From contig NZ_JQSG02000003.1 of NCBI RefSeq assembly GCF_000754095.2, positions 485,397 to 549,396 on the forward strand: a stretch of 64,000 bases of DNA. Reading direction: 5' to 3'. The position numbers and the translations under genes are program-made. This DNA is from Acidihalobacter prosperus. Lineage in GTDB: Bacteria > Pseudomonadota > Gammaproteobacteria > DSM-5130 > Acidihalobacteraceae. The notes under the pieces were generated by a model. The model did no database searches, was not told where the DNA came from, and saw only the letters and a list, made by a program, of their open reading frames with translations. Of the stretch, positions 1 through 1,659 are shown piece after piece; the stretch's first letter is position 1; each line of letters begins with the position of its first letter.

Positions 1-2
1 AA

Positions 3-146
3 ACCTTGCGTGAGGATATGTTCTGCTTCGAGCTGCCGTTTCTGTTACCGAAAATTAGTGTCTCGATGCTATGGCATCCTCGACTGCACGAGGATCAGGC
101 ACACCGTTGGCTGCGCGGACAGATACGTAACGCATGTGCCGAATAG
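3..146 (+). CDS. LysR-family regulator, C-terminal fragment
   Basis: This is the last 47 codons of a gene whose start lies before the window; the reading frame is open from base 3 to the TAG at 144-146. The peptide contains the run SMLWHPRLHEDQAHRWLR. That fits the C-terminal end of LysR-type regulators of the NodD/NahR/LinR kind, where a WHPR..DPAHRWLR element ends the effector-binding domain. Only the tail is visible, so neither ligand nor target can be inferred. It lies in AT-richer DNA next to the bacteriocin-like genes, on the opposite strand. Confidence 0.6.
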   Translation, partial: TLREDMFCFELPFLLPKISVSMLWHPRLHEDQAHRWLRGQIRNACAE

Positions 147-408: not shown

Positions 409-783
409 CTACCTGTTGCGTTCGTTAAACCCTAGGATACCGGTCTTCCAAAGAGGAGCTATAGCGACCAAGAAAATTACGAGACTTATTGCTTGTAGCC
501 ACAATGGGATTTCTTTGAACGCCGATAAGCACATGACTAAATTGTAGAGCGTGATTGCGACACCGAGTCTTACGGCTCCCGTTCTACGCCCCCTAAAGTA
601 GCCAAAAAAAGCGGAAACATAGCAAAAGAGGAATGCCAGTGCAACGACAATACTGACCGTATGATCTGAATCTTCTGAGACGTCTATAACGCTGCGATAT
701 GCGAAAAGGGCGAGCGCGACAATACCCACACTCAACAAAGTTGAGAACAGAAGGAAACCGAGCCCACCCTTTGTAGACTTCAT
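409..783 (-). CDS. Small four-helix membrane protein, candidate bacteriocin immunity protein
   Basis: A 124-residue protein with four hydrophobic segments at about residues 8-29, 44-62, 72-88 and 95-113. A basic loop (RGRRTGAVR) follows the second helix, and the C-terminal end is short and polar. I recognise no family. It starts 9 bases after the stop of the double-glycine bacteriocin precursor (793-963) on the same strand, so the two are probably co-transcribed. Small polytopic proteins directly downstream of class II bacteriocin genes are commonly immunity proteins, which is the basis for the proposed role. The ribosome binding site is weak, consistent with translational coupling. Function is inferred from position only; it could be an unrelated membrane protein. 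Confidence 0.6.
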   Translation of the reverse strand: MKSTKGGLGFLLFSTLLSVGIVALALFAYRSVIDVSEDSDHTVSIVVALAFLFCYVSAFFGYFRGRRTGAVRLGVAITLYNLVMCLSAFKEIPLWLQAISLVIFLVAIAPLWKTGILGFNERNR

Positions 784-792
784 GGCCTATTA

Positions 793-963
793 CTAGGCTT
801 CAACAATGGCGTATGCGAGAAGGACCCCGGCAGCAAATGCTGCTCCCGCAGGAGCACCAATTACCCCAGCGACTGTGCCGATCGCACCAATGACTTGCAT
901 GCCGCTTGACAAAGACATTCCACCAGACATTTTTTCGATTTCATCCAAGGGCAATTCACGCAT
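793..963 (-). CDS. Bacteriocin/microcin-like precursor with double-glycine leader
   Basis: A 56-residue precursor. Residues 1-15, MRELPLDEIEKMSGG, fit the double-glycine leader pattern (acidic, Leu and Glu at fixed spacing, Met/Ser before Gly-Gly) cut by C39-peptidase ABC exporters. The predicted 41-residue mature peptide is rich in Gly, Ala and Val, with GxxxG-like spacings and a hydrophobic C-terminal half, typical of pore-forming class II bacteriocins and colicin-V-type microcins. The ATG at 963 is preferred because AGGGAG lies 8 bases upstream. The frame runs open further upstream to 1170, but that part is not bacteriocin-like and starts without such a site. No C39 exporter gene is visible in the window, so export would depend on genes outside it. 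There is no cysteine, so no disulfide or thioether ring is possible. Confidence 0.75.
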   Translation of the reverse strand: MRELPLDEIEKMSGGMSLSSGMQVIGAIGTVAGVIGAPAGAAFAAGVLLAYAIVEA

Positions 964-1182
964 GATGTGCTCCCTAATGATGCTTTGATGTTTTCGGGAT
1001 ACGCCTCCTGCATGCCTCTTGCTGGCGCAAGAACTTACAATGCCGAAAATCGTTGCCGACCGAACGGAGACGGACGAAGCAGAAATTTGGGTTTGCACAT
1101 CTAATCCGTCTTGGTAGTCCACGATGTGTCGCGACGACTCTAACATAAAGCAGATCAATCCCCCTGCCACGCTCCCCTCACA

Positions 1183-1659
1183 TCACTCCCCCTTCTTCCT
1201 CCGCATCATCAACAACGCCCCCATGTCCTCACTAAACCCCCACCGGCGATAAAACGGGATCATCTCGGGCCGGCAGAACAGGTCGATGTAATCCACCTCG
1301 CGCAGGCGAGGGTGGTTGACCACGCGATCCAGCAGCTCGGCGCCGAGACCGCTGCCGCGCCGGTCGGCTCGGACGATGACGTCGTAGAGCGTGGCGCGGT
1401 AGACGAAATCGGTGAGCACGCGGGCGAAGCCGACGAGGGCGTCGTCCGGGCCTTCGACGAGGGCAACGATCACGTCGGTGTGCGCGAGCATGCGTTCGAC
1501 ATCCTCGAGTCGGCGGTTTGCACACCAGGATTCGCCCCGGTAGAGGTCCACCAGTTGGTCGATCTGCGCGTCATTGAGCCGCTCGACCGTGCGCCACGCC
1601 GTTGCGCTGTCCGCAGCCGTCAGATCGTCTCCCGTCACCACACCGCCTTCCGTCGACAC
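1183..1659 (-). CDS. GNAT-family N-acetyltransferase
   Basis: A 158-residue single-domain acetyltransferase. The acetyl-CoA binding motif A is seen as VRADRRGSGLGAELLDRVV, preceded by a hydrophobic strand (ALVGFARVLTD) and followed by a C-terminal strand with FYRRWGF, the usual GNAT motif B. The start is a GTG at 1659 with GGAG 7 bases upstream. The gene begins 4 bases after the stop of the PaiB-like gene on the same strand, so they form an operon; paiA-paiB of Bacillus is likewise a GNAT plus FMN-binding pair. The substrate is unknown and may be a small amine or an amino acid. Family assignment is secure, the reaction is not. Confidence 0.85.
   Translation of the reverse strand: MSTEGGVVTGDDLTAADSATAWRTVERLNDAQIDQLVDLYRGESWCANRRLEDVERMLAHTDVIVALVEGPDDALVGFARVLTDFVYRATLYDVIVRADRRGSGLGAELLDRVVNHPRLREVDYIDLFCRPEMIPFYRRWGFSEDMGALLMMRRKKGE

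Follow-up and report, generated by a model that had tools for sequence, protein, structure and literature searches.

The small genes pep1 and imm1 of Acidihalobacter prosperus very likely encode a CvaC-type precursor resembling class II microcins, along with its dedicated immunity protein; the two have become orphaned in this genome. The pair is a remnant of a CvaA/CvaB-type locus and belongs, in decayed form, to a type of system already known. It was found in a 64,000-nucleotide stretch of DNA (the window; C3:485397-549396 of the draft genome G000, which comprises 8 contigs and 3.36 Mb and is rated 100% complete), on a 747-kb contig at around 485.8-486.4 kb. The GC content of the pep1-imm1 stretch is 0.485, compared with 0.677 window-wide. 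The original prediction had placed the pair in AT-richer DNA at the edge of the genome; it was right about the composition, but the pair is located only at the edge of the window.

The product of pep1 consists of the leader MRELPLDEIEKMSGG followed by the core MSLSSGMQVIGAIGTVAGVIGAPAGAAFAAGVLLAYAIVEA (translation of positions 793-963; Table 1). The predicted core has a Gly+Ala content of 44%, a GRAVY value of 1.49, a mass of 3.8 kDa and no cysteines. Its C-terminus, LLAYAIVEA, lacks the Ser/Gly-rich siderophore-attachment motif of class IIb. The imm1 gene begins 9 bases downstream of the pep1 stop codon. Four membrane segments were recognized in its product by hydropathy, and an AlphaFold2 model contains helices at residues 5-32, 37-63, 67-89 and 94-122 (mean pLDDT of 64, i.e. 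modest confidence, from a two-sequence alignment). The structural features named in the original prediction, i.e. (i) a 56-codon ORF with a double-glycine leader, (ii) a Gly/Ala-rich mature part of 41 residues, (iii) a good ribosome-binding site, and (iv) a four-helix membrane protein 9 bases further on, were all recovered in our analysis.

Table 1. Coordinates of the features of the pep1-imm1 region and of the corresponding G002 cassette
Feature	Location	Strand	Remarks
LysR regulator, 3' end	1..146	+	L005 14641-15543; part of the LysR-MFS segment between the two pairs
imm1, immunity candidate, four-helix membrane protein, 124 aa	409..783	-	65% identical homologue in the same place in G002
pep1, microcin-like precursor, 56 aa	793..963	-	ATG start; stop codon 793-795; 70% identical homologue in G002
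Codons of predicted mature core, 41 aa	796..918	-	predicted cleavage after Gly15
Codons of double-glycine leader MRELPLDEIEKMSGG	919..963	-	agrees with leaders from C39 ABC exporter loci
Upstream stretch resembling the G002 exporter-peptide intergenic stretch	964..1052	-	L005 15817-16449 vs L021 9545-10182, 72%
Ribosome-binding site AGGGAG	970..975 (+ strand numbering)	-	6 nt ahead of pep1 ATG
Junction where G002 has ~4.3 kb of adaptor and exporter DNA	1053..1149	.	
GNAT acetyltransferase	1183..1659	-	conserved flank of variable site
Second GG-peptide/membrane-protein pair	L005 10482-11356	-	G000 C3 ~480.5-481.4 kb, 4-5 kb before window start
G002 HlyD-type adaptor	L021 5842-7176		
G002 C39-peptidase ABC exporter	L021 7173-9338		Peptidase_C39 E 2e-35, ABC_membrane, ABC_tran
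G002 peptide	L021 9632-9808		homologue of pep1, 43-aa core
G002 membrane protein	L021 9819-10190		homologue of imm1
G002 TolC-type protein	L021 10559-12022		OEP E 1e-50

For comparison we used two genomes of the same genus, G001 and G002, of which only G002, from a sister species, carries both genes side by side. The G002 pair lies near the same leuA-like and GNAT genes as in the window's genome and is part of a complete cassette, whose genes are arranged on one strand in the order (i) HlyD-type adaptor, (ii) C39 ABC exporter, (iii) peptide, (iv) membrane protein, and (v) TolC-type protein. When compared with known structures, the exporter matched the bacteriocin exporter PCAT1 (E 3e-100), with ComA also among the matches. 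The motifs described as important in CvaB (Gln, Cys, His and Asp-Pro; PMC3335142) can also be read in its sequence. The closest named exporters among the matches listed (53-54% identical) are those of Rhodanobacter, Andreprevotia, Burkholderia and Dyella. The pair adds to a known kind of system, since exporters and leaders related to these occur commonly among proteobacteria. The original view that such a module would be unusual in a chemolithotroph was overstated: related exporters with the same leader type are widespread in beta- and gammaproteobacteria. Downstream, G002 contains a second module, composed of a copy of the exporter 3' end (95.6% identical), a GG peptide (MRELTLGEMQFVSGG leader plus core, 74 aa in all), a 137-aa membrane protein and a tolC fragment. 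The complete G002 cassette lends good support to the reading of pep1-imm1 as a bacteriocin or microcin gene with an immunity candidate, but in the window's genome the exporter is absent and the pair is orphaned.

Neither a sensor kinase nor a response regulator was found in the G002 cassette, which argues against a different role for the pair, in which the GG peptide would be a signal, or some other small peptide destined for export, and the membrane protein a receptor or a helper in export. We consider such a role unlikely, although signals, too, are carried by transporters of this kind (ComA was among the structures matched), and the GG peptides encoded around CvaB-like exporters are very diverse, with few having been tested. 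The pep1 core is strongly hydrophobic and Gly/Ala-rich, and the two dissimilar cores are each accompanied by their own dissimilar downstream membrane protein, as would be predicted for toxins with cognate immunity.

In the window's genome, the ~4.3 kb that carries the adaptor and exporter in G002 is missing between the GNAT gene and pep1, and the site is contiguous. No match to the adaptor was found in this assembly. Only residues 565-721 of the exporter remain, as a 3' fragment with in-frame stops, and tolC is likewise represented by a fragment (residues 8-102). Both fragments lie beside the second GG-peptide/membrane-protein pair, ~4.8 kb from pep1-imm1, and in G002 the second pair is likewise accompanied by exporter and tolC fragments; the peptide of this second pair is identical in the two genomes and its 137-aa membrane protein differs at one residue. 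Since the exporter and tolC fragments are common to the window's genome and G002, the sequences favour loss of the exporter here over arrival of the pair without it. The original prediction had noted that the exporter was not in view, and had regarded its absence from the genome as grounds for rejecting the microcin reading. There is indeed no exporter in the window, nor was an intact C39 exporter found in the whole assembly, where a broken fragment is left; however, the leader is conserved in the exporter-bearing G002, which points to loss and not to a false call.

The four C39 hits of the window's genome were considered as candidate exporters and rejected, as none of them is fused to an ABC transporter. 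They correspond to one FapD-like protein, the two halves of a second FapD-like protein, and one small unrelated protein (the FapD naming is our own interpretation, based on sequence and neighbours). In Pseudomonas, FapD serves amyloid secretion as a periplasmic protease and is not an exporter (PMC5557850). The best full-length ABC match (L031) was also rejected, being an ordinary half-transporter that lacks a C39 domain. The halves of what appears to be one split FapD-like gene are located at L003 1465-1968 (- strand; C3 ~615 kb) and L002 1240-1773 (+ strand; C6 ~538 kb). The same 386-aa open frame is present beside both of them (L006 8352-9512 and L009 8612-9772), so that two copies of a mobile element may have recombined here, unless the sequences were joined during assembly. 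In the region L007 8691-13230 (- strand; G000 C6 ~228-233 kb), the other FapD-like C39 protein is near several repeat-rich, probably secreted proteins, and this region resembles a functional-amyloid (Fap-like) locus.

Could the system still be active in the window's species, with the peptide secreted in trans by a different ABC exporter, or by one hidden in an assembly gap? Class II microcin exporters have been described as promiscuous (PMC10233263), both peptide ORFs are intact, and the genome is a draft in 8 contigs; nevertheless, this draft is rated complete, the C39 domains found in it are not fused to ABC transporters, and the native site is contiguous without the genes. Continued activity is in our estimation quite improbable. 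With adaptor and exporter lost and just a piece of the channel left, the pep1 product is probably no longer secreted in this species. The presence of an intact gene for an unsecreted putative toxin needs explaining, either by recent loss of the exporter or by an unrecognised exporter elsewhere.

The leader of pep1 was evaluated with a 15-position profile, built from leaders ending in GG or GA that are encoded in loci around the best 80 relatives of the G002 exporter (from 84,980 species genomes) and in two plasmid loci; it includes no sequences from the window's genus. A loose pattern was used to collect the leaders, and the profile therefore contains some spurious rows. The pep1 start ranked first among the 3,186 possible starts in the window (29.8 bits; runner-up 11.5 bits). 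Its score was reached by no start in 60 random (Markov-1) 64-kb windows (maximum 15.0) and in none of 2,000 random versions of bases 1-1250 (maximum 17.9). This confirmed that the pep1-imm1 observation is real and beyond chance. The dN/dS values for the window's genome versus G002 are 0.30 (pep1) and 0.27 (imm1), so that both genes show purifying selection and their products behave as selected proteins. That the two ORFs are merely chance open frames in AT-richer DNA, as the low GC content and the lack of a consensus promoter in a sigma-70 scan upstream of pep1 might imply, has a negligible probability and is already contradicted by their conservation, given the order and sequence retained in G002, the dN/dS of ~0.3 and a leader score far above chance.

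The site occupied by the pair is variable within the genus, since in a third species, G001, these flanks enclose different DNA with, among other things, a PIN-like gene; G001 has no C39 protein. The two pairs of the window's genome are separated by a LysR-MFS segment (~3 kb), for which no match was detected in the four relatives searched. With this segment and the PIN-like gene pair of G001, the variable site looks like an insertion hotspot. Synonymous divergence between the window's genome and G002 amounts to 0.69 for the peptide gene and 0.85 for the membrane protein gene, which is far above the values for two flanking genes (0.03-0.05) and for the second pair (0-0.02). On these grounds, the first pair would most simply be a different allele introduced via recombination in one species, rather than one that diverged in place. 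The two modules of G002 are identical over 74 bases before the peptide gene and over the first six leader codons, and then diverge; the duplication breakpoint falls inside the leader codons. The pattern suggests that the exporter end and leader start common to the modules may supply homology for swapping the core and immunity genes that follow.

A stretch of ~320 bases is also present at the variable site in each of the three species (G001 L125 8283-8601, G002 L021 12381-12694, window's genome L005 12293-12606), with 83-85% identity to the G001 copy. Beside the cassette boundary, the GNAT gene of G002 (L021 4743-5141) is shortened and frame-changed at its 3' end relative to that of the window.

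Searches of Pfam and NCBIfam with both proteins gave no matches above the cut-off. Below it, MccV (PF17508; cut-off 27 bits) was matched by pep1 (E 0.013, 16.5 bits) and its G002 homologue (E 0.005, 17.8 bits), and Bacteriocin_IIc (PF10439; cut-off 27.1 bits) by the G002 homologue only (E 0.008, 16.7 bits). In 369 genomes of the class, searched with imm1, pep1 and the membrane protein of the second pair (imm2), we found no convincing match outside the genus: there were none for imm2, and the remaining matches of pep1 (E ~0.007-0.008) and imm1 (1e-3) were short and partial. The imm1 alignment had no match in 84,980 species genomes, a set that may omit close relatives of the window, nor did imm1 have one in plasmids, and these searches revealed no recognised immunity homologue. 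Among the papers searched, we found no relevant literature on bacteriocins or microcins in these acidophiles.

In class II microcins, the precursor starts with a leader of 15-18 aa whose last two residues are GG or GA (PMC10233263), and the leader profile and random controls place that of pep1 in this category. Their immunity is conferred by small membrane proteins (51-216 aa) encoded beside the precursor (PMC10233263), which the candidate imm1 resembles in position, size and its four membrane helices. The cores of verified members comprise 60-90 aa, with mature peptides of ~5-10 kDa (PMC10233263); the predicted core described here is smaller (41 aa and 3.8 kDa; 43 aa in G002). A C39 ABC exporter and membrane fusion protein are encoded nearby in G002, but not in the window's genome. 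Because the core size and the linked exporter, both usual features of the class, deviate here, we do not formally assign pep1-imm1 to the class II microcins; it looks to work, or to have worked, like one of them.

By homology to MccV, and with the anatomy of G002, an intact system would operate as follows: (i) the C39 domain of the CvaB-like ABC exporter would recognise the leader, (ii) the leader would be cut after Gly15, (iii) the hydrophobic core of 41-43 residues would leave via the exporter, the HlyD-type adaptor and the TolC-like channel, (iv) the core would damage the inner membrane of related competitors, and (v) the four-helix protein would shield the producer. In the window's genome, the disappearance of adaptor and exporter and the fragmentation of the channel would have left the pair as a remnant, perhaps retained because it protects against relatives in which production of such a peptide continues.

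All functionally confirmed microcins came from Enterobacteriaceae, as stated in a 2022 review (PMC10233263). If our reading is true, the intact G002 cassette and the decayed copy in its sister would naturally provide a producer and a matching immune non-producer, with which it could be tested whether such peptides work in acid, saline habitats. The locus would also be a clear case of toxin-immunity cassettes swapped behind a common leader. More tentatively, it is possible that in this chromosomal microcin locus of an extreme acidophile exchanged toxin-immunity cassettes are combined with an unusually short, Gly/Ala-rich membrane-active peptide (41-43 aa) that works in acid, and that exporter loss has produced an immune non-producer.

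Among known systems, MccV (colicin V; CvaC/Cvi/CvaB/CvaA/TolC) and the other class IIa microcins share with the pair (i) the 15-residue GG leader, (ii) a small core without a siderophore motif, (iii) an adjacent small membrane protein, and (iv) a C39 ABC exporter and HlyD-type adaptor, the latter two in G002. In contrast to the MccV type, the core described here has 41 aa instead of 60-90 and no cysteines, the pair is chromosomal, a tolC-like gene lies inside the cassette, and the exporter is absent from the window's genome. Gram-positive class II bacteriocins (Bacteriocin_IIc) also have a GG leader, a short Gly/Ala-rich hydrophobic core and a small membrane protein encoded downstream, but export here needs an adaptor and an outer-membrane channel, and only a weak match of the homologue links the two groups. 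Genome-mined putative class II microcins of Enterobacterales and beyond, of which few have been tested (PMC9746304), were predicted in the same manner, on the basis of a GG leader with export genes linked to it, and likewise have divergent cores; pep1-imm1 differs from them in its acidophilic iron/sulfur-oxidising host, its broken locus and the exchange of alleles between sister species.
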